The translations under genes were made by a program, and so were the position numbers. From Desulfarculaceae bacterium (GTDB taxonomy: Bacteria; Desulfobacterota; Desulfarculia; Desulfarculales; Desulfarculaceae), in NCBI GenBank assembly GCA_020444545.1, contig JAHLKT010000004.1, positions 372,001 through 436,000 on the forward strand: 64,000 nt of DNA, in the 5' to 3' direction. Below are positions 11,567 to 37,870 of the stretch, piece by piece (positions within the stretch are counted from its first letter, which is position 1; each line of letters starts with the position of its first letter). A model generated the notes under the pieces. The model saw nothing but the letters and a program-made list of their open reading frames with translations, was not told the DNA's origin and did not search any database.

Positions 11567-12283
11567 TCAGGCTTCCTTGAGGTTCTCGAAGTAGTCGATC
11601 ACGAAGTTGATGTGCGAGCGCATGTAGTCAAAGGCCGCGTGGGTGTCGTGGGCCTTGATGGCCGCCAGCACCCTCTCGTGCTGGAGATGCACCAGGTCAA
11701 CGTTGACCAGGTCCTGGTAAAGGATCTGCAAGTTCTCGCGGATGCCCGCGGCCATGTAGTCATAGAAGTGCTTCATGAGCTGCACTTGCAGGCGGTTCTT
11801 GGTGGCGTAGGCGATGCGCATGTGGAAGTAAACGTCTTCCGAGCTGCCCAGGCCGCCCTTTTTTATCTGGGCGTTCATCTCGGCCAGGCTGCGCTCCAAG
11901 AGGACGATGTCCTCCTCGTTGGCCCGACGGGCGGCCAGCACCGCGCTGTTGCACTCCAGACCCAGGCGCACCTCCAAGAGCTCGGTAAGGCTCAGGGATT
12001 GGCCCTCGATCATCAGGCCCAATGGGTTGCGTTCCAGGCCCTCGTGATGGTTGGCCACGAAGGTCCCCTGCCCCTGGCGCTGCTCCACCAGGCCTAGGCT
12101 TACCAAACGGCTCACCGCGTTGCGCACCGTGGGCCGGCTCACCCCCATCTGCAGGGCCAGCTCCCGCTCCGGCGGCAGCTGATCCAGGGGCTTCAGCTGG
12201 CCCCGGAAGATCATGTCCCGCAGCTGCTCGAAAACCTGATCCGAGATTTTTTTGGGTTGCACCGGCTTGAAGCGGCTCATCAT
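11567..12283 (-). CDS. GntR-family (FadR/FCD subfamily) regulator of the TRAP/2-hydroxyacid operon
   Basis: 238 residues: N-terminal winged helix (about 10-75, with LPPERELALQMGVSRPTVRNAVSRL as the recognition core) and an all-helical FCD effector domain with the metal-binding pattern of Asp/His residues (HMRIAYAT, HERVLAAI, MRSHI). Two tandem ATGs (12283, 12280) exist; GGGAG is better spaced for the second. The gene is divergent from the dctPQM-dehydrogenase operon. Both intergenic promoters overlap TGGT-N3-ACC palindromes, the half-sites used by PdhR, LldR and FadR. I infer autorepression plus repression of the operon, relieved by an organic acid such as lactate or pyruvate. Confidence 0.92.
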   Translation of the reverse strand: MMSRFKPVQPKKISDQVFEQLRDMIFRGQLKPLDQLPPERELALQMGVSRPTVRNAVSRLVSLGLVEQRQGQGTFVANHHEGLERNPLGLMIEGQSLSLTELLEVRLGLECNSAVLAARRANEEDIVLLERSLAEMNAQIKKGGLGSSEDVYFHMRIAYATKNRLQVQLMKHFYDYMAAGIRENLQILYQDLVNVDLVHLQHERVLAAIKAHDTHAAFDYMRSHINFVIDYFENLKEA

Positions 12284-12581: not shown

Positions 12582-12630
12582 TTGACAGACGCGGGGGTTT
12601 TTACGTATCCCTAAATTGGTCTTACCAATT
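12582..12630 (+). promoter_or_regulatory. Promoter and perfect GntR-type operator of the TRAP/dehydrogenase operon
   Basis: TTGACA at 12582-12587 is followed 18 bp later by a weak -10 (TATCCC, 12606-12611). Immediately downstream, across the expected start site, lies the perfect palindrome AATTGGT-CTT-ACCAATT (12614-12630), which matches the TTGGT-N3-ACCAA operator type known for PdhR/LldR-like regulators. The geometry fits repression. Confidence 0.65.
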
Positions 12631-12836: not shown

Positions 12837-13919
12837 ATGCGCAAAGCAGCCAAACTTTTGACCCTGGTGATGGCCCTCAGCCTGCTGATGGCCGCGCCCG
12901 CCCTGGTCTCGGCCAAGGAAAAACCCGTTCTGCTCAAAGTCCCGGTCACCTTCTCCACCGAGCTGCCCGGCTTGGGCTCCACCATCAAGTGGGTCTCCGA
13001 GCGCATCGGCACCCTGAGCGGCGGGGCCATCAAGATGAAGGTCTACGAGCCCAAGAAGCTGGTGGCGCCTTTCGAGATTCTCGAGTCCGTGTCCAAGGGC
13101 AAGGTCAACGCCGGCTACTCCATGAGCGCCTACTGGGCCGGCAAGATCAACGCCGCTCCCATCTTCTCGGCCATCCCCTTCGGCCCCGACGCCAGCGAGT
13201 ACCTCGCCTGGATGTACTACGGCAACGGCCTGAAGTTCTGGCAGGAGATGTATGACAAGAACGGCTACAACGTCCACGTCCTGCTCTGTGGGGTCATCGC
13301 CCCGGAGACCTCCGGCTGGTTCAACAAGGAGATCAACACCCCCGAGGACCTGAAGGGCCTGCGCATGCGCTTCTTCGGCTTCGGCGGCAAGGTCATGCAG
13401 AAGATGGGCGTGTCCACCAGCCTGCTGCCCGGCGGCGAAATCTTCCCGGCCCTGGAGAAGAAGGCCCTGGACGCCACCGAGTTCTCCATGCCCGCCATCG
13501 ACAAGCGCCTGGGTTTCTACAAGGTCGTCAAATACAACTACTACCCCGGTTGGCATCAGCAGGCCTCCCTGTTCGAGCTCTTGATCAACAAGGACACCTG
13601 GAACTCCCTGAGCAAGCATCAAAAGATGTGCCTGGAGATCATCACCCGCGCGGCCACCGCCGACTCCCTGGCTTTCGTGGAGTCCCTGCAGGCCCCGGTC
13701 ATCAAGGAAAACGTGACCAAGCGCGGCGTTATCAACAAGTACTGGTCCCCCGAGATGCTGGCCGCCTACAAGAAGGCCTGGCTCGAGGTGGTCGAGGAAG
13801 AAAAGAAGAAGGACCCCTTCTTCGCCAAGGTGTGGGACGACCTGAGCAAGTTCCGCGAGGAGTATGAGTACTGGTCCTCGGTGGCTTTCCTGCCCCGGCC
13901 CGCGCCCAAGCTCAAGTAA
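12837..13919 (+). CDS. dctP: TRAP transporter periplasmic substrate-binding protein DctP
   Basis: 360 residues from ATG 12837, chosen for the strong GGGAGGAA ribosome-binding site and the Sec signal peptide that follows (MRKAAKLLTLVMALSLLMAAP..SA). The mature protein shows DctP-family landmarks: the VKVPVTFSTELPGLG N-terminus, GVIAPETSGWFNKEINTPEDLKGLRMR with the conserved arginine that salt-bridges a carboxylate ligand, and SMPAIDKRLGFYKV. It delivers an organic acid to DctQM. The context (2-hydroxyacid dehydrogenase downstream, PdhR/LldR-type operator upstream) suggests lactate or another 2-hydroxy/2-oxo acid; this is inference. A strong hairpin follows the gene. Confidence 0.93.
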   Translation: MRKAAKLLTLVMALSLLMAAPALVSAKEKPVLLKVPVTFSTELPGLGSTIKWVSERIGTLSGGAIKMKVYEPKKLVAPFEILESVSKGKVNAGYSMSAYWAGKINAAPIFSAIPFGPDASEYLAWMYYGNGLKFWQEMYDKNGYNVHVLLCGVIAPETSGWFNKEINTPEDLKGLRMRFFGFGGKVMQKMGVSTSLLPGGEIFPALEKKALDATEFSMPAIDKRLGFYKVVKYNYYPGWHQQASLFELLINKDTWNSLSKHQKMCLEIITRAATADSLAFVESLQAPVIKENVTKRGVINKYWSPEMLAAYKKAWLEVVEEEKKKDPFFAKVWDDLSKFREEYEYWSSVAFLPRPAPKLK

Positions 13920-14024: not shown

Positions 14025-14553
14025 ATGAGCGGCGATTCTCACCAACCACCGGCCATTTGTAAAAAGTTGGACCGGTTTGTCATCAAGGTGGGCAAGGTGG
14101 CTGCCTGGAGCAACTGCCTATTGGTGCTGGCCATCATCCTCAACGTGGTGCTGCGCTATGCCTTCGGCAAGGGCCAGGTGTGGCTGGAGGAGCTGCAATG
14201 GCACCTCTACGGCCTGGCAGTGATGATCGGCCTGTCCTACTCCCAGGCCATGGACTCGCCCATTCGGGTGGACATCATGCACCAGCGCTTCTCGCGCCGG
14301 GGCAAGGCCTTTTGGGAGATCGTGGGCTCCCTGTTGTTCCTGCTGCCCTGGGTAGCGGTGCTCATCTACATGGGCGTTGATTTCTGGACCGAATCCTGGC
14401 GGGTCAACGAGGCCTCGGACTCTCCCCTGGGCCTGCCCTTCCGCTGGATCATCAAGGCGGTGATTCCCATCTCCTTCGCCCTTTTGGGCACGGCTGGCAT
14501 CAGCCGCTTCATAGCCAGCATCGCGGTGCTCGCCGCGCCTCGGGGGGATCGCC

Positions 14554-14564
<11 letters not shown>
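14025..14564 (+). CDS. dctQ: TRAP transporter small permease DctQ
   Basis: 179 residues with four predicted membrane helices. The family pattern is visible: a first helix ending in NVVLRYAFGKGQVWLEELQWHLYGLAVMIGLSY (the conserved W-x-EE-L motif) followed by DSPIRVDIMHQRFSRRGKAF. It forms the Na+-coupled membrane complex with DctM, whose gene overlaps its 3' end by 11 nt. Confidence 0.93.
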
Positions 14565-15939
<1,375 letters not shown>

Positions 15940-15959: not shown

Positions 15960-16442
15960 ATGGCGGTCAAGATTCTGTTGGCGGTGGATTTTTCCGGCTA
16001 CAGCGGCGACACGGTGAAGCTGGCCGGCGAGCTGGCCAGCTGCCTGGGCGGCGAGCTGGTGGCGCTGAACGTGCTGCACCAGCGCGTTGTGGACGAGCTC
16101 CGCTTCATCCAAGGCACCACCGAGCTGCTTGACTGCGAGCAGGCGGTGGCCCAACGCAAGCAAGGCCGCCAGCAGCGCCTGGAAGAGCTGGTGCAAGAGT
16201 ACGGCCTAACGGCCCGCTGCCTGGTGGAGATCGGCGTGCCCTGGGAGGCCATCCTGGACGTGGCCGCCCGCGAGGAGGCGGCCTACATCGTCATGGGCAC
16301 CAAGGGCCGGGGCGACTTCGCCCGCACCATGCTGGGCTCCAACGCGGACAAGGTGTACCGCCATAGCCCGGTGACCGTGGTGTCGGTGCGCGGCGACAAG
16401 CACCGCGAGCACCTTGGCCGTGCGCGGGGCGCGGGGGCCTGA
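15960..16442 (+). CDS. Universal stress protein (UspA family) inside the 2-hydroxyacid operon
   Basis: 160 residues; N-terminal VKILLAVDFSGYSGDTVKLAGEL with the conserved aspartate, and MGTKGRGDFARTMLGSNADKV matching the G-x2-G-x9-G-S ATP-binding signature. RBS AGGAGGGCCCC precedes ATG 15960. It sits between the TRAP genes and the cytochrome gene, whose ATG overlaps its stop by one base, so it is part of the operon. Usp proteins linked to TRAP systems (for example TeaD with TeaABC) regulate the transporter in an ATP-dependent way; the same role here is inferred. Confidence 0.9.
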   Translation: MAVKILLAVDFSGYSGDTVKLAGELASCLGGELVALNVLHQRVVDELRFIQGTTELLDCEQAVAQRKQGRQQRLEELVQEYGLTARCLVEIGVPWEAILDVAAREEAAYIVMGTKGRGDFARTMLGSNADKVYRHSPVTVVSVRGDKHREHLGRARGAGA

Positions 16443-17653
16443 TGCGCCGCCTCCTGCCCATAGGCGGGCTGTTCCTGGCCGCGCTGGTGCTGGTCCTGGC
16501 TTGGTCCGCTCCGGCGGCGGCCATGGCCAAAGCCGACGCGGCCTGCCTCCAGTGCCACGCCTCCGAAGGCCTGGCCGACGGCAAGGGCCAAGACCTGGGC
16601 CCGCACGCCGAGCTTTCCTGTGTGGAGTGCCACCAAGGCGCCCAGCAGGTGCCTCACGAAAACATCACCCTCGCTTCCTGCACCGACTGCCATCTGCCCC
16701 ACAACGAAGAGGCCAGCGGCGACCTGCACGCCGGGGTGTCTTGCCAGGCCTGCCACTTCGGCGGCGAGGCCGGTCCCCACGCTCTGGTGCCGGTAAAGAA
16801 CCAGGCTTCGTGCAAGCGCTGCCATTTTGAGGGCAACCAGATTGGCGCGCCCGCCGCGGTGCTGCCCCCCAAGAGCGCGCTGTGCCTGGCCTGCCACACC
16901 GCCACCCTCAGCCTGGCCGACTGGCCCTCGCGCATCGCCCTGGCCTTGCTGCTTCTGGGCTTCGTCGGCTCGCTGGCCTTCTGGCTCAGCGGCGGCGGCG
17001 CGGGCCCGGCCCCGAATCACAAAAGCGCCTGGCGCATCGGCCCGGCCCTGAGCGCTCTGCTCCTGGACGGCCTGTTGCAGCGCCGCTTGTGGCGTCTGTC
17101 GCGGGGCCGCTGGCTGGTGCACGCCCTGATTTTCTTGCCCTTAGCCGCGCGCCTAGCCTGGGCCTTGGCAGCCCTGGTGCTGGGGCGCTGGGCCGTGGGC
17201 AGCTATTTCACCCAAGCTCTCTTGGCCAAGAACCACCCGGCCACGGCCCTGTTCTTAGACCTCACCGGCCTGATGATCCTGGCAGGCGGCCTGCTGGCCC
17301 TGGGCCGCCGTTTGGCCCGGCGGGGCGCGGCCCTGCCCGGCCTGCCCCGGCCCGACTGGCCCGCCCTGGCCCTCATCGGGCTCATCGTGCTCAGCGGCTT
17401 CATCACCGAGGGTGCGCGCCTGGCGCTCACCGGACACGGCGGCGCGCCCTGGGCTTTAGTGGGCGCGGCGCTTAGCCACCTGTTCACGCCGGGCCCGGCC
17501 CTGCAAAGCGCCTATGCCTGGCTGTGGTACGGCCACGCCATCTGCTACGCCGCCTTTGTGGCCTATCTGCCCTTCAGCCGTTTGCGCCATATCCTGCTGG
17601 CCCCCCTGTGGCTGGCTATCCGGGCGGGCGGCGAGACCAAACATGGAAAGTGA
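16442..17653 (+). CDS. Hexahaem cytochrome c fused to a NarI/HdrE-like membrane domain
   Basis: 403 residues. A Sec signal (1-27) leads to a periplasmic domain with six CxxCH haem-binding motifs (CLQCH, CVECH, CTDCH, CQACH, CKRCH, CLACH) within about residues 33-160. A C-terminal part with about five to six membrane helices follows, carrying scattered histidines (for example WLVHALIFLP, WLWYGHAICYAAFVAYLPFSRLRHI) as in NarI/DsrM/HdrE b-type cytochromes that exchange electrons with quinone. It overlaps the usp gene by 1 nt and the dehydrogenase gene by 11 nt. I infer that it links the cytoplasmic dehydrogenase/HdrD-like proteins to the menaquinone pool and to periplasmic haems. The fusion is unusual. 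Confidence 0.82.
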   Translation: MRRLLPIGGLFLAALVLVLAWSAPAAAMAKADAACLQCHASEGLADGKGQDLGPHAELSCVECHQGAQQVPHENITLASCTDCHLPHNEEASGDLHAGVSCQACHFGGEAGPHALVPVKNQASCKRCHFEGNQIGAPAAVLPPKSALCLACHTATLSLADWPSRIALALLLLGFVGSLAFWLSGGGAGPAPNHKSAWRIGPALSALLLDGLLQRRLWRLSRGRWLVHALIFLPLAARLAWALAALVLGRWAVGSYFTQALLAKNHPATALFLDLTGLMILAGGLLALGRRLARRGAALPGLPRPDWPALALIGLIVLSGFITEGARLALTGHGGAPWALVGAALSHLFTPGPALQSAYAWLWYGHAICYAAFVAYLPFSRLRHILLAPLWLAIRAGGETKHGK

Positions 17654-19034
17654 CATGACACCCGAGATCAAGGACAAGCTCCGCTCCATAGTGGGCGAGG
17701 CCAATTTCAGCGACCAGCTCATCGACCTGGTGAGCTACTCCTCCGATGCCTCGGAACACGCCCACCGGCCTGACGCGGCGGCGTGGGCCGAGAGCGCCGA
17801 GCAGGTGCAGGCCATCGTGGCGCTGGCCAACGCCGAGGGCTTCCCGGTCACCGTGCGCGGCGCGGGCACCGGGCTCTCGGGCCTGTCGGTGCCGGCCCAG
17901 GGCGGCCTGGTCCTTGACCTCAGCCGCATGGACCAGATCATCGATATCAGCATCGGCGACCGGGTGGCCGTGGTGCAGCCCGGCGTGGTCTACGCCGACC
18001 TGGCCAAGGCCCTGGAGCCGCACGGTTACGTGTTCCCGCCCGACCCGGCCTCGGGCAAGGCCTGCACCCTGGGGGGCAACGTGGGCACCAACGCGGGCGG
18101 GGTCAAAGGCGCCAAGTACGGTACCACCCGCGACTACGTGCTGGGCCTGACCGTGGTGCTGGGCGACGGCCGCCTGATGAAGACCGGCAACCGGGCCATG
18201 AAGAGCGTATCGGGCTTCGACCTCACCCGCCTGTTCGTGGGCAGTGAGGGCGCCCTGGGCATCGTCACTGAGATCATCCTCAAGATCAGCCCCAAGCCTC
18301 TGGCCACGGCCACCACCCTGGCCATCTTCGACGACCTGGAAGACGCGGGCCGCGCGGTGAGCGGGGTCATGGCCAGCGGGGTCATCCCCAGCGTGCTGGA
18401 GATCCTGGGCCGCGAGACCCTCAAGGCCATCAACCAGAACACCGAGCTCAACCTGCCCGAGGTGGACGCCATGCTCCTGGCCGAGACCGACGGCTACACC
18501 CAGGGCGAGGCGGACTACCAGATGGAGCGGGTGGTGGCGCAGTTCCAGGCCCACAACGCCCGCGAGGTGAAGCAGGCGGAAAGCGCCGAGCAGGCGGCCG
18601 GGCTGTGGAAGGCGCGCAAGAGCTGCTATGCGGTGCTGGCCCGCATCCGGCCCAACTTTTCGCTGGAGGACATCACCGTGCCCATGAGCCAGGTGGCCCC
18701 CATGCTGCGCGGGGTGCAGGAGATCGCCGCCAGGCGCAAGGTGCAGATCGCCACCTTCGGCCACGCCGGGGACGGCAACCTGCACCCGCAGTTCCTCTAC
18801 GACGCCAAGGACCCGGCCGAGAAGGAGCGGGTCGAGGCCGCGGCCGGCGACCTGTTCCAGCTGGCCGTGGACCTGGGCGGCACCCTCACCGGCGAGCACG
18901 GCATCGGGCTGTCCAAGGCGCCCTACATGGCCATGGAGCACGACCCGGTTGCTCTGGACCTGATGCGCTCCATCAAAAAGGTCTGCGACCCTCACAACAT
19001 CCTCAACCCCGGCAAGATGGCTTTGGACGAATAA
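17643..19034 (+). CDS. FAD-linked 2-hydroxyacid (D-lactate/glycolate) dehydrogenase, GlcD family
   Basis: 463 residues from ATG 17643 (a second ATG at 17655 is also possible). VAO-type flavoenzyme: the N-terminal PP-loop VRGAGTGLSGLSVPAQGG, GGNVGTNAGGVKGAKYG in the FAD domain, the RLFVGSEGALGIVTE segment, and the C-terminal cap motifs GHAGDGNLHP and GGTLTGEHGIGLSK containing the catalytic/substrate histidines. It oxidises a 2-hydroxyacid to the 2-oxoacid and passes electrons to an Fe-S partner. The next gene (2-nt gap) is the GlcF/HdrD-like partner; there is no GlcE, so the arrangement resembles D-lactate dehydrogenases of anaerobes. Distinction between lactate, glycolate or other hydroxyacids is not possible from the sequence. 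Confidence 0.92.
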   Translation: MESDMTPEIKDKLRSIVGEANFSDQLIDLVSYSSDASEHAHRPDAAAWAESAEQVQAIVALANAEGFPVTVRGAGTGLSGLSVPAQGGLVLDLSRMDQIIDISIGDRVAVVQPGVVYADLAKALEPHGYVFPPDPASGKACTLGGNVGTNAGGVKGAKYGTTRDYVLGLTVVLGDGRLMKTGNRAMKSVSGFDLTRLFVGSEGALGIVTEIILKISPKPLATATTLAIFDDLEDAGRAVSGVMASGVIPSVLEILGRETLKAINQNTELNLPEVDAMLLAETDGYTQGEADYQMERVVAQFQAHNAREVKQAESAEQAAGLWKARKSCYAVLARIRPNFSLEDITVPMSQVAPMLRGVQEIAARRKVQIATFGHAGDGNLHPQFLYDAKDPAEKERVEAAAGDLFQLAVDLGGTLTGEHGIGLSKAPYMAMEHDPVALDLMRSIKKVCDPHNILNPGKMALDE

Positions 19035-19036
19035 GC

Positions 19037-20140
19037 ATGTCTGACGAACATCCCTTGTTGGAAAAATTCCGCGATCAGATTCAGCGCTGCTCGCGCTGCG
19101 GTTTCTGCCAAGCCCACTGCCCGGTGTTCGGGGGCACCCGACGGCCGGCCCTGAACGCGCGCGGCAAGATGCTGCTACTCAAGGAAGTGCTGGACGGACG
19201 CCTGGAGTTGGGCGAGGAACTGGTGGAAAGCCTGTTCCAATGCACCACCTGCGCCTCCTGCGCTACCAATTGTCCCTCTGGGGTGGATGTGCCCGCCATC
19301 ATCAAGGCAGCGCGCAAGGAGATGGTGGGTCTGGGCACTTGCCACCCCGCATTTTCCGGCATGGACCAGGTGCTGGACGACCACGACAACATCTACGCCG
19401 AGGACGACCCCGAGGACTTCGACCGCGAGCGGGGAAACCGGGCGGAGGTGGTCTACTTCATGGGCTGCGTGGGCCAATACCGCGAGGAAGAGGCCACCGA
19501 GGCGGCCCTGGACCTCCTGGACCACCTGGAGGTGCACTACACCCTCATCGACGAGGTGTGCTGCTCCGGGGTCTTGGAGGACGTGGGCTTCAGTCTCAAG
19601 CCCCGTCTGGCGAGCGCCAACATCGAGCGCATCCTGGCCACCGGAGCCAAGACCGTGGTCACCGGCTGCCCCTATTGCTATCGCACCTTCAGCGAGCAGG
19701 ATGCCTACGCCCCCTTGCGCGAGGCGGGCCTGGAGATAATGCACCTGAGCCAATTCCTGACCGGGCGCGACCTGGGCCTGACCAGCGACCTGAAGGTGAC
19801 CTACCACGATCCCTGCGACCTGGGCCGCCATTGCGGCATCTACGACGAGCCGCGCCGGACCATCAAGGCCGTGGCCCCCAACTTCGTGGAGCTGGCCGAC
19901 AACCGCCAGGACGCCCTGTGCTGCGGGGCCGGGGGCGGGGTGCGCGGGGCCTATGCCAAGAACTCCCTGGCCATGGCCCGCCGCCGTTTGTCGCAGGTTG
20001 AGGAAAGCGGCGCTGAGGTGCTCTTAACCGAGTGCAACTCCTGCGTGCACAACCTGTCCAACGCCAAACTGCGCGCTCAAAAATTCCGAGTTATGACCAC
20101 CCCTCAGTTCCTCATGGAGCTGATCGAAGATTCCGAATAA
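19037..20140 (+). CDS. HdrD/GlcF-like iron-sulfur protein with two CCG domains (I)
   Basis: 367 residues. Two N-terminal [4Fe-4S] ferredoxin motifs (CSRCGFCQAHCP and CTTCASCATNCP) are followed by two cysteine-rich CCG domains. The first has GC-x30-CC-x34-CxxC, close to the canonical CX31-38CCX33-34CXXC; the second has HDPCDLGR..LCCGAGGG..CNSC. All cysteines of both appear intact. In HdrB/HdrD this domain carries the noncubane cluster that splits disulfides; in GlcF/LldE it serves electron transfer from the FAD subunit. It lies 2 nt after the dehydrogenase gene and 16 nt before the lipoyl-carrier gene, so it may connect both (inference). Confidence 0.9.
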   Translation: MSDEHPLLEKFRDQIQRCSRCGFCQAHCPVFGGTRRPALNARGKMLLLKEVLDGRLELGEELVESLFQCTTCASCATNCPSGVDVPAIIKAARKEMVGLGTCHPAFSGMDQVLDDHDNIYAEDDPEDFDRERGNRAEVVYFMGCVGQYREEEATEAALDLLDHLEVHYTLIDEVCCSGVLEDVGFSLKPRLASANIERILATGAKTVVTGCPYCYRTFSEQDAYAPLREAGLEIMHLSQFLTGRDLGLTSDLKVTYHDPCDLGRHCGIYDEPRRTIKAVAPNFVELADNRQDALCCGAGGGVRGAYAKNSLAMARRRLSQVEESGAEVLLTECNSCVHNLSNAKLRAQKFRVMTTPQFLMELIEDSE

Positions 20141-20156
20141 GTACGAGGTGCCTGTC

Positions 20157-20582
20157 ATGGAAATTAGCGGCTACAACTTCCCGGACGAGCTTTACTACGA
20201 CCCGGAGCACTACTGGGTGCGCGTGGAGGGCGACGAGCTGGTCATGGGCATGGACGATTTTGCCCAGAAGCTGGCCGGAGACATCGTGTTCGTGCAGCTT
20301 CCTGACGAGGGCAAGAAGCTCAAGAAGGGCAAGAAGCTGGCCAAGGTGGAGTCCGGCAAGTGGCTGGGCAAGATCCTCTCTCCGGTCAACGGCGAGCTCA
20401 TCGCGGTCAACGAGGAGCTGGAGCTGAATCCCGAGCTGATCAACCAGGACTGCTACGGCGCGGGCTGGATGTATCGCCTGCGGGCGGGCGACCTGAGTGA
20501 GATCGAGGATCTCATGCACGGGGAGGCGGCGGTGCGGCCCTGGGTGGAGGCCGAGATCGCCAAGCACGCCAACGAAGGCTAG
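20157..20582 (+). CDS. GcvH-like lipoyl-carrier protein
   Basis: 141 residues from ATG 20157 with GAGGTG upstream (an in-frame GTG at 20148 is part of that ribosome-binding site). The fold is that of glycine cleavage H protein: YDPEHYWVRVEGDELVMGMDDFAQKLAGDIVFVQLP, the lysine-rich KKLKKGKK stretch, and VESGKWLGKILSPVNGE where K68 is the predicted lipoylation site. The C-terminal half (GAGWMYRLRAGDLSEIEDLM) matches the H-protein tail. No glycine cleavage P, T or L genes are present. The gene is embedded between two HdrD-like genes, and a lipoate ligase closes the operon, so it is probably a dedicated lipoylated carrier like LbpA of the sHdr sulfur-oxidation system (inference). Confidence 0.9.
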   Translation: MEISGYNFPDELYYDPEHYWVRVEGDELVMGMDDFAQKLAGDIVFVQLPDEGKKLKKGKKLAKVESGKWLGKILSPVNGELIAVNEELELNPELINQDCYGAGWMYRLRAGDLSEIEDLMHGEAAVRPWVEAEIAKHANEG

Positions 20583-20586
20583 AACT

Positions 20587-21777
20587 TTGGACAACCGTCT
20601 CTATAGCAAGGGGCAGCTCATGTCCCTGGAAGCCTGCACCGGCTGCGCCGCCTGCGTGGATGCCTGCCCCGCGGTGAACGCCTCGGGCGACGGCAAGCTC
20701 TCGGGTTTCTACCGTTTGGACTGGCAGCGGAGGGCGGGCCGAACCGGCAGCGGTTGGCTGCGGCGGCTGTTCGGCGGGCGGCCTCCCAGCGAGGATGAGT
20801 GGCGCGCGTTTTCGGAGACGGTGTTCCGCTGCACCTTGTGCGGCAACTGCGCCGAGGTCTGCCCCTCGGGCATCGGGCTCAAGGAGCTGTGGCTCAACCT
20901 GCGCCAGGAGTTGGTGGAGCAAGGGGCCTACCCCTCCAAGGTGGACCTGATCCTGGAGAACCTGGCCGAGAGCCACAACGTGTTCGGCGAGGAGCCCGAC
21001 GAGCGGGCCGAGTGGGTGGAGGACCTGGACGACCCGCCGGACGACCTGTTCATCAAGGACCAGGCCGAGGTGGTCTACTTCACCGGCTGCGTGGCCTCCT
21101 ACTTCCCCCTGGCCCAGCAGATACCCGTGGCCCTGTCCGAGGTGCTGCAGACGGCGGAGGTGGACTTCACCCTCCTGGGCGAGGACGAATGGTGCTGCGG
21201 CTTCCCCCTGCTCAGCGCGGGCAACCTGCCCGTTGCCCAAGAAATGATCGAGCACAACCTGGCCGCCATCAAGGACAAGGGCGCCCACGAGGTGGTCTTT
21301 GCCTGCCCCTCTTGCTACATGATGTGGCGCGAGCACTACCCCAAAGCCGGACTCAAGCTTCGCCACGCCACTCAGTTTTTGGATGATCTTTTGGCCTCGG
21401 GCCGCCTGCCCCTGGCCGAGCGCAAACTAACCGTGACCTATCACGACCCCTGCGACCTGGGACGGGCCGCGCGGGTCTTCGAGGCCCCCCGGCGGGTGAT
21501 CCGCGCCTTGCCTGGGGTCGAGTTGGTGGAGCTGGCCGATAACCGCGAGAATTGCCTGTGCTGCGGGGGTGGGGGAAATTTGGAGATGATCGACCAGCAG
21601 CTCAACGCGGGGATCGCCCGGCGCAAGGTTGAGCAGGTGCTGGCCACCGGGGCCTCGACGGTGGTCAGCGGCTGCCAGCAGTGCCTGCGCACCATGGCCA
21701 CCCACGCCCGGCGCAACAAGCTGCCCCTCAAGGTAATGGACGTGGCCCAACTGGTGCGGGCCTCCCTGGACATTTGA
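20587..21777 (+). CDS. HdrD/GlcF-like iron-sulfur protein with two CCG domains (II)
   Basis: 396 residues from a TTG at 20587 with GAAGG upstream; an ATG at 20620 with AGGGG upstream is a good alternative (385 aa). Two [4Fe-4S] motifs (CTGCAACVDACP, CTLCGNCAEVCP) separated by about 60 residues precede two CCG domains (TGCVASY..WCCGFPLL..CPSC and HDPCDLGR..LCCGGGGN..CQQC) with intact cysteines. It is only about as similar to the first HdrD-like protein as family members usually are, so this is not a recent tandem copy. Position 4 nt after the lipoyl-carrier gene suggests they act together, possibly in lipoyl disulfide/dithiol redox chemistry (inference). Confidence 0.88.
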   Translation: MDNRLYSKGQLMSLEACTGCAACVDACPAVNASGDGKLSGFYRLDWQRRAGRTGSGWLRRLFGGRPPSEDEWRAFSETVFRCTLCGNCAEVCPSGIGLKELWLNLRQELVEQGAYPSKVDLILENLAESHNVFGEEPDERAEWVEDLDDPPDDLFIKDQAEVVYFTGCVASYFPLAQQIPVALSEVLQTAEVDFTLLGEDEWCCGFPLLSAGNLPVAQEMIEHNLAAIKDKGAHEVVFACPSCYMMWREHYPKAGLKLRHATQFLDDLLASGRLPLAERKLTVTYHDPCDLGRAARVFEAPRRVIRALPGVELVELADNRENCLCCGGGGNLEMIDQQLNAGIARRKVEQVLATGASTVVSGCQQCLRTMATHARRNKLPLKVMDVAQLVRASLDI

Positions 21778-21796
21778 TCTGGCTTAGGTGGGGAGC

Positions 21797-22465
21797 ATGA
21801 AAGACCAAGCGCGGGACCAAGAGCTTGCCAAACGCCTGCACACCTTCGATGGGTGGGTGCGGGAAGGAAAGATACCCAGCTCCTCCAAGATCATCCCGGT
21901 GCGGCAGTCGGTGGAGTGCTTGCAGTGGGTGTTGCCCACCCAGCAGGTGCTGGAGATACTGCGCAATGCGCGCTCCTTCGCCCTGGCCGACTGCCTGTGC
22001 CGCACCACCTACCAGCGCTGCGACAACCCGCGCGAGACCTGCTTCTACCTCAACGACGTGGCTGACCAGAAAGTCGAGAAAGGCATGGCCCGGAGGGTCA
22101 GCCTGGCAGAGGCCTCCGAGGTGCTCAAGCTGGCCAACCAGCACGGCCTGATCCACCTGACCATCTACAACCCCGAGCAGCACGTGTACGCGCTCTGCAG
22201 CTGCTGCGAGTGCTGCTGCCACGACATCGCTTTCATGAAGCAGTTCGGGCGGCCCGATCTGGTGGCCCATGCCGACTACGTGGCCGAGGTGGACCCGGAG
22301 GCATGCGTGCAGTGCGGCGCGTGCGTGGAGCGCTGCGTTTTCGGCGCCCAGAGCGGGGAGCCGGGCGCGGTGGTTTTCCGGCCGGACAAATGCTACGGCT
22401 GCGGGCTGTGCGTCACCACCTGCGCTGCGGGCGCCATCCACATGGCGCTCCGGGCGCGGCAGTAG
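21797..22465 (+). CDS. Cysteine-rich 2x[4Fe-4S] ferredoxin-domain protein
   Basis: 222 residues from ATG 21797. The N-terminal part (1-150) has no family name I can give with certainty; it has a winged-helix-like start, a cysteine-bearing segment (ADCLCRTTYQRCDNPRETC) and a striking Cys cluster (CSCCECCCHD). The C-terminus has two complete [4Fe-4S] motifs, CVQCGACVERC and CYGCGLCVTTC, of the bacterial ferredoxin type. Similar proteins occur with oxidoreductases in anaerobes as electron-transfer subunits. It lies 19 nt after the second HdrD-like gene and 9 nt before the lipoate ligase gene, so it is part of the operon. A probable electron-transfer partner; the role is inferred. Confidence 0.82.
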   Translation: MKDQARDQELAKRLHTFDGWVREGKIPSSSKIIPVRQSVECLQWVLPTQQVLEILRNARSFALADCLCRTTYQRCDNPRETCFYLNDVADQKVEKGMARRVSLAEASEVLKLANQHGLIHLTIYNPEQHVYALCSCCECCCHDIAFMKQFGRPDLVAHADYVAEVDPEACVQCGACVERCVFGAQSGEPGAVVFRPDKCYGCGLCVTTCAAGAIHMALRARQ

Positions 22466-22474
22466 AATAAGCCC

Positions 22475-23479
22475 ATGCCGTCTTCACGCCGCGGCGCGAT
22501 GCACCTATATCGCCTGGGTTCGGTCTCCTGGCAGGAGAGCCAGCTGGCCTACCACGCCCTGGCCCACCTGGGCCGCGAGGGCCTGGTGCTCTGCTCGCCG
22601 GAGCGGCCTTATCTGTCGGTGGGCTACTTTCAGGACCCGGCCCAGGAGCTGGACCTGGACTACTGCGCCAGGGCCGGGCTGCCGGTGTTCCGCCGCGAGG
22701 TGGGCGGCGGCGCGGTGTACCTGGATCGCAACCAGCTCTTCTGGCAGGTGGTGCTTCGGCGTGAGCATCCCTTGGTCAGCCTCAACCGCCAGCGCTTCTA
22801 TGCGCGCCTCTTGGCCCCGGTGGTGGCGGCCTATGGCGACCTGGGCGTGACCGCCCGGGTGGCCCCGGTCAACGACGTGGCCGTGGGCGAGCGGCGCATC
22901 GCGGGCACCGGCGCGGGCGAGATAGGCCAGTGCGTGGCCTTTGTGGGCAACCTCATGCGCTCCTTTGACTGCGCGGCCATGGCCCGGGCCCTGCGCGCCC
23001 CGGGCGAGGCCTTTCGCCGCTGCTTTCAGGCCTACATGGAACAGCAGCTCACCTCCCTCAGGCGCGAGCTGGGCCCGGAGCGCGAAGCCGCCCTTGACGA
23101 CGAGGCGCTCTACCAGCGCATGGCCTATCGCTTCGACGAGGTGCTGGGCCCCCTGGAGGAGCACCCCCTGGACGATGAGCTGCGCGGGGCCATGGAGCGT
23201 CTGGGCCGCCGCCTGCTCTCGCCGGAGTGGACCTTCAAACCCCGCCGCGCCCGGGCCCTGCGCCAGGTCAAGGTGCGGGCAGGACTCTATCTGCACCACT
23301 GGGAGGGCGGCCAACCCCAGGCCCCGCTACGTGCCCACTTCATCAGCCAGGACGGCAAGGTGATCGAGCTGCACCTCACCGGCCGGGCGGACCTTGCCGC
23401 CGAGCTATCCCGCCAGTTCCTGGGCGCGGACGTGCGCGGTCTGCAAAAGTACCTGAACAGCCTGGCCGCAAGCGCCTAA
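22475..23479 (+). CDS. Lipoate-protein ligase A family protein
   Basis: 334 residues. The BPL/LplA/LipB catalytic domain shows RREVGGGAVYLD (family RRxxGGGxVxHD) and NDVAVGERRIAGTG; in most ligases the position before IAG/ISG is the adenylate-binding lysine, here arginine. The C-terminal 90 residues (FKPRRARALRQVKVRAGLYL...) resemble the LplB-type accessory domain, so ligase and accessory parts may be fused. Its likely substrate is the GcvH-like carrier encoded three genes upstream, as with sLplAB and LbpA in sHdr systems (inference). The stop overlaps that of the convergent RND gene by 4 bp. The ATG at 22475 lacks a good ribosome-binding site; ATG 22499 is possible. Confidence 0.85.
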   Translation: MPSSRRGAMHLYRLGSVSWQESQLAYHALAHLGREGLVLCSPERPYLSVGYFQDPAQELDLDYCARAGLPVFRREVGGGAVYLDRNQLFWQVVLRREHPLVSLNRQRFYARLLAPVVAAYGDLGVTARVAPVNDVAVGERRIAGTGAGEIGQCVAFVGNLMRSFDCAAMARALRAPGEAFRRCFQAYMEQQLTSLRRELGPEREAALDDEALYQRMAYRFDEVLGPLEEHPLDDELRGAMERLGRRLLSPEWTFKPRRARALRQVKVRAGLYLHHWEGGQPQAPLRAHFISQDGKVIELHLTGRADLAAELSRQFLGADVRGLQKYLNSLAASA

Positions 23480-26400
23480 GCGTTCGCCTCGCTCCCCGCG
23501 AATTTCTTGTAGTACAACGCGTAGTAGGCCACCGGCACCACCAGCAGGCTGAAGGCGGTGGAAGCGGCCAGGCCGAAGATGAGGGCCCAGGCCAGACCCG
23601 AGAAGATGGGGTCCAGGGTGATGGGCCAGGCCCCAAGGGCCGTGGTGGCTGCGGTGAGCACGATGGGCCTAAAACGCACCGCTCCGCTGGCCAGCACCGC
23701 GTCCTTGAAGCCGCGCCCCTCGTCCATCTCGTTGTGCACGAACTCTATGAGCACCACCGAGTTGCGGATCACGATGCCGCCCAGAGCGATCATGCCGATC
23801 ATGCTGGTGGCGGTGAAGAACACCGGGTTGGGCCAACCGGCCACCGCGTCCCCGGCCACCAGGTTGAGTAGCCAGAAACCGGGCATGATGCCCAGGAGGG
23901 TCAGGGGTATGGCCAGCATCAACAGAACCGGCACCGTGAACGAGCCGGTCTGCACCACCAGCAGTATGAAGATGCCGATCAGCGCCGCTCCGAAGGCCAG
24001 GCCCAAATCGCGGAACACGCGTAGGGTGATGTGCCACTCGCCCTCGCCGTCCCAGGCCACCGACACCCCGGGCGGAAGCTTGACCTTTTCCATGCGCTGT
24101 TGCAGGTCCAGGATCACCGTGGCCGGCGAGCGCCCGGCCAGCTCGGCGTAGGCCATTACCACGGGCCTGAGGTCCTTGTGCATCACCGGCTGTTCGGTAG
24201 GTGCTTGCACGAAACGCCCCAGCTCGCCCAGGGCCACGTGGCCGCCCGAGGCCGTGGCCACGGGAAGCTGGTTCAACTCCTCCAGGCTGCTGCGGCTCAC
24301 CCGCGGCAGGATCAGGCGTATGGGCAAGGGTTGGCGTTCGTGGGCCAAGTGCACCGTGGCCGGCTGGTCGCCGCCCAGGGCCAGGCGCAGGGTGGCGGTG
24401 ATGCGCGCCGCGCTGATGCCGTGCAGCGAGGCCTTCTCCTTGTCCACCACGAAGTCCCAGCGCGGGCGCTCTGCCTCGGAGGAATCGTCGATGTCCACCA
24501 CCTTGTCCTCGGCGTGCATCACCCCGCGCACCTGGCCCGCGGCCTTCACCAGGTCCGCGTAGGGCGTGCCCGGCTCGCCGTAGACCTCGGCCACCACCGT
24601 GGCCAACACCGGCGGGCCGGGCGGCAACTCCACCAGCTTCAGGTTGGCCCCGTGGCGGCCGGCGATTTTCTCCAGGTCGCGGCGGAGGCGCAGGAGAATC
24701 TCGTGGCTTTGCTGCTCGCGCCGGTCCTTGGGGGCCAAGTTCACCCGGATGTCGGCCACGTTGCCTCCCTGCCGGAGGTAGTAGTGGCGCACCATGCCGT
24801 TGAAGTCCATGGGCGAGGAACCGCCCACATGGGAGGTGTAGTTCACCACCTCGGGCACCCCGGCCAGATAACGCTCCAGGGCCCGCACCGCCCGGTCGGT
24901 GGTCTCCAGGGTGGTGCCTTCGGGCAGGTCCAAGACGAGCTGGAACTCGTTCTTGTTGTCAAAGGGCAGCATCTTCACCGGCACCTGGCGCAGGGCCACC
25001 AGGGCCACCGAGGCCGCCAGGGCCAGCACGATAGCCCCGGCCAGCCCCCAGCGCAAGGCGCGATGCTCCAGAAAAGGCTTCACCGTGGCCTGGTAGGCCC
25101 TTCGCAGGCCGGGCGGGGTCACCTCTTTCGCCTCGCCGGTGATCGTCTCGCCCTGACAGTCAACGGCCGGGGCTCGGTTCTTTAGCAAGCGGTAGCAGAG
25201 CCAAGGCACCACGGTAAGGGCCCACACGGTGCTGAAGGTCACGGTCAGGGGCACGTTGATGGCCATGGGGGCCATGTAGGGGCCCATCATGCCGGTGATG
25301 AAAAACATCGGCGCGAAGCTGACGATGATGGCCAGGGTGGACATGATCACCGGCGGCATCACCTCGTTGACCCCCACCAGGGTGGCCTCCAGGGGGTTGC
25401 GCCGCCCCAGGCGGATATGGCGCTGGATGTTGTCCACGTTGGTTATGGGGTCGTCCACCACCAGGCCCAGGGAAAGGATCAGGGCGAACATGGTCACCCG
25501 ATTGATGGTGTAGCCGAAAAGGTAGTTGACGAACAGGGCCATGGCAAAGGACAGGGGCACCGCGATGGCCACCACCAGAGCCTCGCGCCAGCCCAGGGTG
25601 AAGGCCAACAGGGCCACCACGGTGAGCACCGCGAAGAACAGCGAGTTCATCAGTTCGTCGCTCTTCACCTGGGCGGTCTGGCCGTAGTTGCGGGTCACGG
25701 TGAGCCCCACCCCGGCGGGCAATATCTGCCCTTTGAGCTTGTCGGCCCGGGCCAGGATGTCCTCGGCCACGCTCACCGCGTTGGTGCCGCGCTTCTTGGC
25801 CAGGGCGATGGTCACCGCGTTGAGGCCCTGACGGTCGGTGGGCAGGCCCTGGCGAGCCAGCCAGCCCCGCCCGAAGCTCATGCGGGTGTAGGCGGTCGCC
25901 TCGGCCGGGCCGTCCAGGATGCGGGCCACGTCGCGCAGATATACCGGCCGGCCCTGATGCACCCCGACCACCAAGGTGCCCACCTGCGCCGGGGTCTGCA
26001 AATAGGCGTTGCTGGTCACCTGAAACACCCGGTCGGCCTGATCCATGCGCCCGGCCAGGGCGGCGGCGTCGGCCCCGGCCAGGGCCCGCCGCGCAGCCAG
26101 GGGGCTTATGCCGTAGGCGGCCAGGCGCTGGGGGTCCAGCTCCACCCGCACCTGGCGGGCGCGGCCACCGTAGATGCCGGTGCGCGAGATGTCGGGCACC
26201 CGCGAGAGATGGAAGAGCATCTCCTCGGCCATGCGCCGGAGCTCGTAGTCCGAGTAGCGCGACGAGTGCAGGGTGAGATTGACGATGGGTACGTCGTCGA
26301 TCTCCACCGGCTTGACCACCCAACCCCGCACCACGGAGGGCACCTGGTCGGCGTTCATGGCGATCTTGTTGTAGAGCTTGATCAGGGAGCGCTCGCGGTC

Positions 26401-26742
26401 CTCGCCCACGAAGAATCTTACCGTGACCACGGCCTGACCCCGCTGGGCCCGGGAGTAGACGTGCTCCACCCCGTCGATCTGCCAGAGCAGGCGCTCCAGG
26501 GGGGTGGTGACCAGGCGCTCCACCTCGGCGGCGCTGGCCCCGGGCGCGCTGACCATCACGTCGGCCAGGGGCACCACGATCTGGGGCTCTTCCTCGCGGG
26601 GGGTGAGCATCACCGCCGCTGCCCCCAGGCACACCGCCAGAATCATCAGCAGCAACGATAGCTGCGAAGTGACAAAGGGCCGCACCAGCCGGGCCATGAG
26701 GCCCAGGCGCGGCTCGCCGTTTTGGCTGGGATCAGCGGGCAT
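23476..26742 (-). CDS. RND-family efflux transporter, inner-membrane pump
   Basis: 1088 residues, normal for an AcrB/CzcA-type pump. Features: first helix after residue 25 (SQLSLLLMILAVCLGAAAVML), a large periplasmic porter domain with DVMVSAPGASAAEVERLVTTPLE, the TM4 segment LSLGLVVDDPITNVDNIQRHI with the two adjacent aspartates of the proton relay, a second periplasmic domain from about residue 570, and a C-terminal helix bundle (FTATSMIGMIALGGIVIRNSVVLIEF). The REEEPQI/IDDVP motifs resemble the subgroup of HAE-like pumps of environmental bacteria with broad substrates. The start ATG is embedded in the end of the adaptor gene (11-nt overlap). Substrate unknown. Confidence 0.94.
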   Translation of the reverse strand: MPADPSQNGEPRLGLMARLVRPFVTSQLSLLLMILAVCLGAAAVMLTPREEEPQIVVPLADVMVSAPGASAAEVERLVTTPLERLLWQIDGVEHVYSRAQRGQAVVTVRFFVGEDRERSLIKLYNKIAMNADQVPSVVRGWVVKPVEIDDVPIVNLTLHSSRYSDYELRRMAEEMLFHLSRVPDISRTGIYGGRARQVRVELDPQRLAAYGISPLAARRALAGADAAALAGRMDQADRVFQVTSNAYLQTPAQVGTLVVGVHQGRPVYLRDVARILDGPAEATAYTRMSFGRGWLARQGLPTDRQGLNAVTIALAKKRGTNAVSVAEDILARADKLKGQILPAGVGLTVTRNYGQTAQVKSDELMNSLFFAVLTVVALLAFTLGWREALVVAIAVPLSFAMALFVNYLFGYTINRVTMFALILSLGLVVDDPITNVDNIQRHIRLGRRNPLEATLVGVNEVMPPVIMSTLAIIVSFAPMFFITGMMGPYMAPMAINVPLTVTFSTVWALTVVPWLCYRLLKNRAPAVDCQGETITGEAKEVTPPGLRRAYQATVKPFLEHRALRWGLAGAIVLALAASVALVALRQVPVKMLPFDNKNEFQLVLDLPEGTTLETTDRAVRALERYLAGVPEVVNYTSHVGGSSPMDFNGMVRHYYLRQGGNVADIRVNLAPKDRREQQSHEILLRLRRDLEKIAGRHGANLKLVELPPGPPVLATVVAEVYGEPGTPYADLVKAAGQVRGVMHAEDKVVDIDDSSEAERPRWDFVVDKEKASLHGISAARITATLRLALGGDQPATVHLAHERQPLPIRLILPRVSRSSLEELNQLPVATASGGHVALGELGRFVQAPTEQPVMHKDLRPVVMAYAELAGRSPATVILDLQQRMEKVKLPPGVSVAWDGEGEWHITLRVFRDLGLAFGAALIGIFILLVVQTGSFTVPVLLMLAIPLTLLGIMPGFWLLNLVAGDAVAGWPNPVFFTATSMIGMIALGGIVIRNSVVLIEFVHNEMDEGRGFKDAVLASGAVRFRPIVLTAATTALGAWPITLDPIFSGLAWALIFGLAASTAFSLLVVPVAYYALYYKKFAGSEANA

Positions 26743-27808
26743 GGCCCTCGGCCGGAATCAGCACCGTCTCGCCGCCCTTGAGGCCTGAAAGCGCCTCGAG
26801 CATGTCGCCCTGTCGGCGGCCGGTGGTCACCATCACCTTTTGCCAGCGGCCGTCCTGCTTGACCATGACCATCTCCAGCTGGCCCACCCGGCTCACCGCC
26901 GCGGCGGGCACCAGCACCGCCTTGCGCTTGCCCACCGGCACCAGCAGGCGGCCGAACACGCCGGGGTAGAGCCCGGCCTCGGTCGGCAGGCCCACCTTCA
27001 CGATGAAGGTGCGGGTGGCCGGGTCGGCGGCGGGCACCACCTCGCGCACCTCGCCGCTAAGCACGCGGTCCAGGGAAGGCAGCTCGACCTGGAGCTTCTG
27101 GCCGGGATGCACCCGCGCGAAGAGCCCCTCGGGCAACACCGCCTCCAAACGCAGGCCGCCCTTGGCCTCCATGGTGAGCAGCGGCCTCCCGGGCTGGGCG
27201 CTGTCGCCGGGCTCGGCCAGGCGTTTGATCACCCGGCCGTCGGTCGGGGCGCTCACCGTGGTATAGCCCAGAGCCACCCGTGCCTCCTGCTCCATTTCGC
27301 CCGCGCGGGCCACCTGGGCCTGGGCCCGCTTGAGCCCTTCGGTGGCCATCTCCATCTGGCGGGGAGTGGCGGCCTGGCCCTTCAAGAGCTGGGCCACGCG
27401 GCTGTGCTCGGCCTTGGCCCGGGCCAGCACCGCCTGTGCCTCGGCCATGCCTTGCCGGGCCTGGGCCAGGCGGGCGCGGTACTGCCGGTCGTCCAGCTTG
27501 ACCAGTTCCTGCCCCTGCTTGACCATCTGCCCGGCGCGCGCCTCCACCTTGAGGATGCGCCCCGGCACCTGGGCCTCCACCCGTATCTCGCTCACCGGCT
27601 GCACCGTGCCCACGGCCTGGTGGTTCACCGGCAGCTCCACGGCTTTGGTCTGGGCCTCGCGCCCCGCCGGAGCGGCCTTTTCCCGGGCCTCGATGCGCCC
27701 AGGCCCGATCTTGCCGAAGTCCAGAAAGCCGCCGGTATAGGCGATGAGCAGGGCCAGGGCCAGGCACCCGGCCACCAGGCCGATGAGGCGGATCGTCTTA
27801 GCGGGCAT
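26732..27808 (-). CDS. RND efflux periplasmic adaptor (membrane fusion protein)
   Basis: 358 residues from ATG 27808, which has a strong AGGAGG ribosome-binding site; an upstream in-frame ATG at 27829 is less likely. A single N-terminal anchor/signal helix (IRLIGLVAGCLALALLIAYTG) is followed by a lipoyl/biotinyl-like half (RVEAQVPGRILKVEARAGQMVKQGQELVKLD), an alpha-helical hairpin rich in Ala/Gln/Lys (about 110-190), the second lipoyl half (VSAPTDGRVIKRLAEPGDSAQPGRPLL) and beta-barrel. It bridges the pump and the TolC-like channel. Overlaps both neighbours (11 nt each side), so the three genes form an operon. Confidence 0.93.
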   Translation of the reverse strand: MPAKTIRLIGLVAGCLALALLIAYTGGFLDFGKIGPGRIEAREKAAPAGREAQTKAVELPVNHQAVGTVQPVSEIRVEAQVPGRILKVEARAGQMVKQGQELVKLDDRQYRARLAQARQGMAEAQAVLARAKAEHSRVAQLLKGQAATPRQMEMATEGLKRAQAQVARAGEMEQEARVALGYTTVSAPTDGRVIKRLAEPGDSAQPGRPLLTMEAKGGLRLEAVLPEGLFARVHPGQKLQVELPSLDRVLSGEVREVVPAADPATRTFIVKVGLPTEAGLYPGVFGRLLVPVGKRKAVLVPAAAVSRVGQLEMVMVKQDGRWQKVMVTTGRRQGDMLEALSGLKGGETVLIPAEGHAR

Positions 27809-37655: not shown

Positions 37656-37870
37656 TTGTCCTCCAGGATCTGCTCCACCTCGGCCATCTTGCCCAGGGCC
37701 AACTCCTCGCTGATCAGGACCAGGCCGCAGCGCGGGCAGCGAGGCAGCTCGGCGGTGAACTCGTTGCCCAGATACTCCACCACCACCGGGGCGGGTTCCA
37801 GCTTGCCGCCGCATTTGCAGCAGGTCCACTCCAGGTCGCCGGGGCGGATGTTGTCGGTGTTCATGCTCAC
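37652..37870 (-). CDS. Small CxxC redox/zinc-ribbon protein (DVU_1557 type)
   Basis: 72 residues from GTG 37870 overlapping the preceding stop (GTGA); an internal ATG at 37864 would remove two residues. It contains CCKCGGKL and CPRCGLVL, two knuckles of a rubredoxin-like or zinc-ribbon fold, and an acidic helical C-terminus. A small metal-binding or electron-transfer protein; the operon context suggests it serves the large oxidoreductase or the radical SAM enzyme. Confidence 0.78.
   Translation of the reverse strand: MSMNTDNIRPGDLEWTCCKCGGKLEPAPVVVEYLGNEFTAELPRCPRCGLVLISEELALGKMAEVEQILEDK

Follow-up and report, generated by a model that had tools for sequence, protein, structure and literature searches.

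A GcvH-like lipoyl protein with HdrD-type partners and a membrane cytochrome as a candidate electron exit in a D-2-hydroxyacid oxidation operon of a Desulfarculaceae bacterium

Why should an operon for the oxidation of a 2-hydroxyacid encode a homologue of the glycine cleavage H protein? The question is raised by a 64,000-nucleotide (nt) stretch from a Desulfarculaceae bacterium (contig JAHLKT010000004.1, positions 372,001 to 436,000; hereafter the window, the whole stretch that was analysed, with position 1 as its first letter), in which seven genes are tightly packed on the + strand at 16442-23479, with spacing from overlap to 19 nt. They encode a membrane cytochrome (16442-17653), the GlcD-type subunit of a flavin adenine dinucleotide (FAD)-dependent D-2-hydroxyacid dehydrogenase (17655, or 17643, to 19034), its HdrD-like partner HdrD1 (19037-20140), a GcvH-like predicted lipoyl carrier (20157-20582), a second HdrD-like protein, HdrD2, the constant partner of the lipoyl protein (20587-21777, with a TTG start), a Cys-rich ferredoxin-like protein with two Fer4 stretches, apparently accessory (21797-22465), and an LplA-type lipoate-protein ligase (22475-23479). 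An earlier note, written from the sequence alone, had described this series and had read the lipoyl group as a dithiol/disulfide electron shuttle; all seven genes are present with domain matches, and the interpretation as a whole is partly supported by the comparisons reported here. These comparisons show that the core of the system is GcvH, HdrD2 and the cytochrome, often together with the ligase, and that GlcD and HdrD1 are one of several exchangeable electron sources. On balance we favour the view that the operon encodes a dihydrolipoyl-protein:membrane oxidoreductase which receives its electrons from a dehydrogenase for a D-2-hydroxyacid, probably D-lactate.

The GcvH-like protein and the glycine cleavage H protein

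The window protein matches PF01597 with 136 bits and passes the NCBIfam GcvH cut-offs, and its Lys68 (codon AAG, 20358-20360), situated in the motif ESGKWLGK, aligns with the lipoyl lysine of the H proteins of E. coli and T. thermophilus. Taken at face value, these matches would fit a genuine H protein of glycine cleavage, or else a relay that donates lipoyl groups to the E2 subunit of a 2-oxoacid dehydrogenase. The surroundings of the lipoyl lysine tell a different story. In the 80 loci from Desulfobacterota and Chloroflexota that were fetched with HdrD2 as query, the motif ESGKW[LV]G is found in all 65 distinct GcvH proteins that were classed as neighbours of Hdr-type genes. A second search used PF01597 alone in 40 related genomes and was not anchored on Hdr genes; it placed 33 of the 36 ESGKW proteins next to Hdr-type genes, as against 2 of the 47 other GcvH proteins, and the motif occurred in none of the 13 GcvH proteins linked to gcvTP (Fisher p = 2.5e-17 for motif versus Hdr-type neighbour, a value that overstates independence, the genomes being related). 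When 395 genomes of the phylum were searched at the DNA level for the motif alone, 47 had it (the reversed-pattern control gave one hit), and a recognisable GcvH was encoded at 18 of 20 motif loci sampled from other families, with Hdr or GlcD-HdrD genes close by in 16 of the 18.

On a tree of 136 GcvH sequences the motif changes once, whether its columns are kept or taken out, and the split that defines the ESGKW clade retains a support of 99 (Shimodaira-Hasegawa-like approximate likelihood ratio test, SH-aLRT) after their removal; the tree is short (about 140 columns), and its main split alone is relied on. As judged from these sequences, the ESGKW proteins form a clade separate from the genuine glycine cleavage H protein, a point that the earlier note had put forward for checking. 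The clade would account for some 'glycine cleavage H proteins' to which current models give the wrong annotation, and ESGKW[LV]G offers a simple marker for their re-annotation.

The host genome (4.38 Mb in 11 contigs, completeness 100, dsrA-positive at 582 bits), whose closest named relatives are Desulfarculaceae, encodes five GcvH-like proteins. Its canonical GcvH, with the ordinary motif ESVKTAAD, lies outside the window in a gcvT-gcvH-gcvPA-gcvPB-lipA operon, the gene names being our reading of the neighbouring open reading frames (ORFs). The stretch itself holds no gcvT or gcvP gene, as had been observed before, yet a full gcv operon is present elsewhere; even so, the window protein does not group with genuine H proteins, and its linkage to Hdr-type genes is conserved. 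A glycine cleavage H protein was therefore rejected, on the grounds of the separate clade, the missing gcvTP linkage and the different H protein of the host gcv operon. Matches to the 2-oxoacid dehydrogenase E2 (PF00198) numbered zero in the host genome, the control being positive in 10 genomes. Since the host lacks E2, the window protein is no lipoyl relay to it, and this candidate was likewise set aside for the host genome. Both explanations are already contradicted, and we regard them as scarcely credible.

Two further GcvH-like proteins of the host were noticed. One (L088, G000:C1:790500-809500) is a lone GcvH with the motif ESAKSVSD, common to many relatives, and has neither glycine cleavage nor Hdr genes adjoining. 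The other (L089, G000:C1:27000-46000), 310 aa long, has a divergent GcvH domain and adjoins a large HdrA-type gene; similar long proteins are present in many relatives. A separate cluster (L233, G000:C2:222000-236000) encodes LplA-DUF116, an FAD protein, LipS1 and LipS2. As lipA is present in the gcv operon, the host seems to have two routes of lipoate assembly side by side.

A constant core with changing electron sources

What stays constant in the fetched loci is a NarI-type cytochrome, an ESGKW-type GcvH and HdrD2, usually accompanied by the ligase, and this linkage recurs across Desulfobacterota and Chloroflexota far above chance. Within 9.5 kb in the 54 HdrD2 loci longer than 12 kb, GcvH was found in 48, the cytochrome in 45 and the ligase in 37. 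Many of the fetched loci are short metagenome contigs, and genes in the loci were labelled by running phmmer with representative queries on mechanical ORFs. The electron source, on the other hand, changes. It may be GlcD with HdrD1, as in the window; a set of E1, E2 and E3 with an AcoX-like protein and an acetoin-reductase-like short-chain dehydrogenase/reductase (Pfam and NCBIfam labels); a GlcD-HdrD fusion; or HdrABC (for example L071, L072 and L087). On the HdrD2 tree the GlcD/HdrD1 and E1/E2/E3/AcoX contexts switch at least four times, and through these changes of dehydrogenase HdrD2 retains the lipoyl protein as its neighbour. Of the neighbourhood of dehydrogenase, two HdrD-like proteins, GcvH and ligase for which the earlier note had suggested a search, the linkage of GcvH to HdrD-type proteins and a ligase is conserved, as is that to a NarI-type cytochrome, whereas GlcD and HdrD1 represent one context among several. 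The ferredoxin-like protein, which it had counted as part of the operon, did not hold up as a general member: homologues were seen only in the window and the same-genus loci L006 and L138, with none in L007 (from Desulfocarbo indianensis, a cultured relative that has the operon), and it was set aside as a core part.

In the contexts with E1/E2/E3 the gene for E3, an enzyme that forms or oxidises dihydrolipoyl groups, often lies directly upstream of the cytochrome, GcvH and HdrD2 genes. Acetoin/2-oxoacid dehydrogenase clusters with this module were seen at L016, L022, L034, L037, L046, L052, L055 and L061; there, the module would let E3 link NADH to the membrane. Genes for lipoylation (the ligase, LipA, LipS1/LipS2) are often co-clustered with the module, and lipoyl synthase genes were found at several loci, LipA above its cut-off and LipS1 and LipS2 as the sole hits, below theirs. 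The HdrABC context is represented in the host itself by a second ESGKW GcvH (L087, G000:C3:516500-535500), whose cluster comprises two HdrA-like proteins, HdrC, HdrB and an 886-aa GlcD-HdrD fusion. This type of cluster recurs in most genomes of the genus and possibly represents a lipoyl-linked, HdrABC-coupled 2-hydroxyacid dehydrogenase.

The predicted cluster ligands of the two HdrD-like proteins are conserved. HdrD1 and HdrD2 each combine PF13183 with two PF02754 stretches (2x[4Fe-4S], two CCG domains), and both have eight cysteines for two cubane clusters along with two CCG motifs, each complete, of the form CX~31-36CCX~34-36CXXC. In the HdrB/HdrD type, motifs of the form CX~31-39CCX~35-36CXXC hold two non-cubane (CCG) clusters, next to two cubane clusters. 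In HdrD2 all 18 cluster cysteines are 100% conserved among 89 sequences, and in HdrD1 conservation is at least 97% among 31. Among solved structures, HdrD2 is best matched by 9ojn_A ('Iron-sulfur-binding reductase') and by chains of HdrB. The cytochrome has a signal/anchor, six CXXCH haem c sites and a NarI-like b-type domain at its C-terminus (PF02665 27.0 bits, cut-off 22.9; PF14522 also matched), and its homologues, from counts of haem sites and hydrophobic segments, have 4-11 haem sites. The ligase matches PF21948 with 105 bits (cut-off 27), has the LplA-B catalytic domain and finds ligases as its relatives in the PDB.

From D-2-hydroxyacid to the membrane

The GlcD subunit (PF02913 228 bits, PF01565 149 bits) carries the motif GEHG at residue 413 and scores 461 bits with TIGR00387, under the cut-off of 568; its best relatives in the PDB are a glycolate oxidase, several D-lactate dehydrogenases and LctD, which belongs to the lactate dehydrogenase/Etf complex. 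Together, GlcD (PF01565 and PF02913) and HdrD1 (PF13183 and PF02754) have the domains of a DldII-type D-lactate dehydrogenase (D-LDH). DVU3027-28 of Desulfovibrio vulgaris (DldII-A/B) is a genetically shown D-LDH (PMC4481167), which likewise pairs a GlcD-type FAD subunit with an HdrD-like subunit (dicluster, CCG domains) and has the GEHG motif. The match to this enzyme, the racemase genes of relatives (LarA-type, near 8 of the 54 HdrD2 loci, most of the assignable ones with GlcD) and the type of regulator make D-lactate the probable substrate.

The regulator is a GntR/FCD-family protein (11567-12283, - strand; PF00392 80 bits, PF07729 73 bits), divergent from the operon. Between the two lies a perfect palindrome, TTGGTCTTACCAA (12616-12628), present as a single copy in the 64-kb window against 0.02 expected. 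L006 has the pattern upstream of its operon, L035 and L039 have it directly upstream of their cytochrome genes, and L007 has a near-copy; across the 2.17 Mb of loci that were fetched, it was met at no more than a handful of sites. We take it to fit the PdhR/LldR-type operator consensus of the GntR/FCD family, and it is probably the operator of the divergent regulator. Promoter and terminator scans gave no matches above chance level. The seven genes are preceded on the same strand by those for the tripartite ATP-independent periplasmic (TRAP) transporter proteins DctP (12837-13919, the ATG at 12837 being the chosen start; PF03480 127 bits), DctQ (14025-14564; PF04290 78 bits) and DctM (14554-15939; PF06808 249 bits) and by a universal stress protein gene (15960-16442; PF00582 85.6 bits), which is found in L006 and L007 as well. 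The packing described earlier for 16442-23479 is borne out, but owing to these upstream genes the unit is probably one longer operon that starts at the TRAP transporter, near 12837.

Two features of the window stand apart from this unit. An efflux operon of the RND type (23476-29297, - strand), with genes for the transporter, the membrane fusion protein and the outer membrane channel, converges on the ligase gene, the two stops overlapping by 4 nt. Further on, a protein of 770 aa (37867-40179, - strand) combines CCG and dicluster segments with a part that resembles pyridine-nucleotide-disulfide enzymes; its gene adjoins a 905-aa molybdenum hydroxylase-like gene of the aldehyde oxidoreductase type (40307-43024, - strand).

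In the reading that we favour, the operon would serve to take up and oxidise a D-2-hydroxyacid, most likely D-lactate, and to lead the electrons to the membrane by an exit of their own. GlcD would oxidise the substrate at its FAD and pass the electrons to HdrD1; the GcvH-like protein, with Lys68 lipoylated (probably by the ligase of the operon), would take them up as dihydrolipoamide; HdrD2, with its iron-sulfur site of the CCG type, would re-oxidise the dithiol there and hand the electrons to the NarI-like/hexahaem cytochrome, from which they would reach menaquinone and/or periplasmic cytochromes c. HdrD2, the cytochrome and the lipoyl protein would in this way form a plug-in dihydrolipoyl-protein:membrane oxidoreductase. 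Given a constant core and changing sources, oxidation of dihydrolipoyl-GcvH by HdrD2 and the cytochrome is the simplest reading. The idea of a shuttle gains support from the absence of E2 in the host genome and from the loci at which the module accompanies E1/E2/E3 complexes, since these yield dihydrolipoyl groups. In the acetoin context, E3 could equilibrate the lipoyl group of GcvH with NADH or E2, as we infer from its action on the H protein.

Several points weigh against this proposal. The standard potential of the lactate/pyruvate couple is about -0.19 V. That of lipoamide is about -0.29 V (PMC6067878), and the main objection is that the first transfer, from lactate to lipoamide, runs uphill by ~0.1 V if the potential is not altered by the protein; from lactate to menaquinone the overall path is downhill. 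The lysine of the ligase motif RK[IV]SG, kept in nearly all other relatives (RKISG), is Arg in the group of the window (the window itself and, among the Desulfarculaceae relatives, L006, L138, L156 and L009). With six haem c sites, the final acceptor could be periplasmic and not quinone. The case is built on genes and sequence comparison. In addition, the D-LDH of D. vulgaris, although also made of GlcD and an HdrD-like subunit, is described without a lipoyl protein, and its operon without a second HdrD, a dedicated cytochrome or a ligase (PMC4481167).

This last point suggests another explanation, in which GlcD, HdrD1, HdrD2 and the cytochrome pass electrons by direct contact and the lipoyl protein has a regulatory, structural or protective role. 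Membrane proteins of the EtfD/HdrF type are generally known to accept electrons without a lipoyl protein (for HdrF, PMC2702500), which would agree with such a chain. However, neither the lipoyl lysine nor the ESGKW residues around it vary within the clade, the genes for lipoylation often travel with the module, and the lipoyl protein is kept with HdrD2 across changes of dehydrogenase, which makes direct contact unlikely. Since GlcD and HdrD1 alone match an enzyme described without a lipoyl protein, the shuttle would be an alternative exit and no requirement.

Electrons might also run the other way, from quinol or periplasmic cytochromes to the lipoyl protein, for use in a reductive reaction (as DsrMK reduces DsrC) or in confurcation of the HdrABC type. 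Enzymes of the HdrD/DsrK type are reversible as a rule, the cytochrome has many haem c sites, and HdrABC does occur with the same GcvH clade. Yet the module is repeatedly linked to catabolic functions (TRAP uptake, LarA-type racemase, acetoin/2-oxoacid dehydrogenase), and reduction of lipoamide (-290 mV) by menaquinone (-75 mV) would be strongly uphill without energy input. We consider this direction very unlikely.

There is also a wider proposal, to which we would give slightly less than even weight: protein-bound lipoamide may be a general respiratory electron carrier in anaerobes, parallel to NADH, ferredoxin and the electron-transfer flavoprotein (ETF). The distinct GcvH-like clade would collect dihydrolipoamide electrons from unrelated dehydrogenases (2-hydroxyacid, acetoin/2-oxoacid via E3, HdrABC-linked) and deliver them through HdrD-type disulfide chemistry to membrane cytochromes. 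The lipoyl cofactor is known mainly for acyl and aminomethyl transfer and is not known to have been described before as the carrier in a respiratory chain of this kind, and the path of lactate electrons to the membrane in sulfate reducers is still unsettled; the ESGKW family offers a testable route.

Comparison with known systems

Literature searches that paired GcvH with HdrD, with acetoin or with lactate dehydrogenase turned up no account of the module among the papers covered. The nearest known case of a lipoyl protein linked to Hdr partners is LbpA, which forms part of the sHdr system together with sLpl and LipS1/S2 (PMC6067878, PMC10332631) and for which a dihydrolipoyl electron step with re-oxidation by E3 and NAD+ has been proposed (PMC6067878). 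Like the window protein, LbpA is a GcvH homologue with a lipoyl lysine, linked to Hdr-like proteins and to dedicated lipoylation genes including a specific ligase, and to this extent the analogy drawn in the earlier note stands. It suggests that the window protein might instead be a sulfur carrier, binding sulfane sulfur or a thiol intermediate and presenting it to Hdr-type sites, as proposed for sHdr; HdrABC is indeed encoded at some ESGKW loci (L071, L072 and L087). However, LbpA has two conserved cysteines, near the N- and C-terminus (PMC6067878), and here the analogy fails, as the window protein has no such pair and the only frequent cysteine of the ESGKW clade (82%) is mid-protein and shared with the canonical GcvH of the host. 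The sHdr subunit set is absent at the window, its place being taken by HdrD1 and HdrD2, and the constant neighbours of the clade are carbon dehydrogenases and a NarI-type cytochrome. No TusA or rhodanese genes were noticed at the loci, where no systematic search for sulfur-transfer genes was made, and tblastn of plasmids with LbpA references returned ordinary GcvH only. A sulfur carrier is therefore quite unlikely, and as the family has neither the cysteine pair nor the sHdr partners of LbpA, we do not file it under that name.

The electron-carrier reading is better compared with systems that bring electrons to or from the membrane. With the H protein of glycine cleavage the window protein shares the fold family and the lipoyl lysine, but the former has an ESVK-type motif and gcvTP linkage and the latter ESGKW[LV]G, a clade of its own and no such linkage. 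In the HdrF/ETF:menaquinone-oxidoreductase type (PMC2702500; PDB 9ojn_A), an HdrD domain and a multi-helix membrane cytochrome likewise deliver electrons to the quinone pool; HdrD-type membrane proteins such as HdrF of Desulfobacterium autotrophicum have been proposed to collect electrons in this manner without a lipoyl carrier (PMC2702500). These proteins are fused and fed by ETF or Glp dehydrogenases, whereas the window has separate genes and an extra haem c domain. A mechanistic parallel would be DsrMK acting on DsrC and the HdrDE of methanogens, in which, as proposed for the module, a CCG subunit of the HdrD/DsrK type and a b-type (NarI-like) membrane cytochrome act on a disulfide. By its linkage the GcvH-like protein stands in the place of DsrC, although HdrD2 is no DsrK equivalog, scoring 95 bits with the DsrK model against a cut-off of 400, and the disulfide carrier would be protein-bound lipoamide instead of DsrC or CoM-S-S-CoB. 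If so, the Hdr-type disulfide chemistry of CoM-S-S-CoB, DsrC and sHdr/LbpA would extend to carbon respiration.

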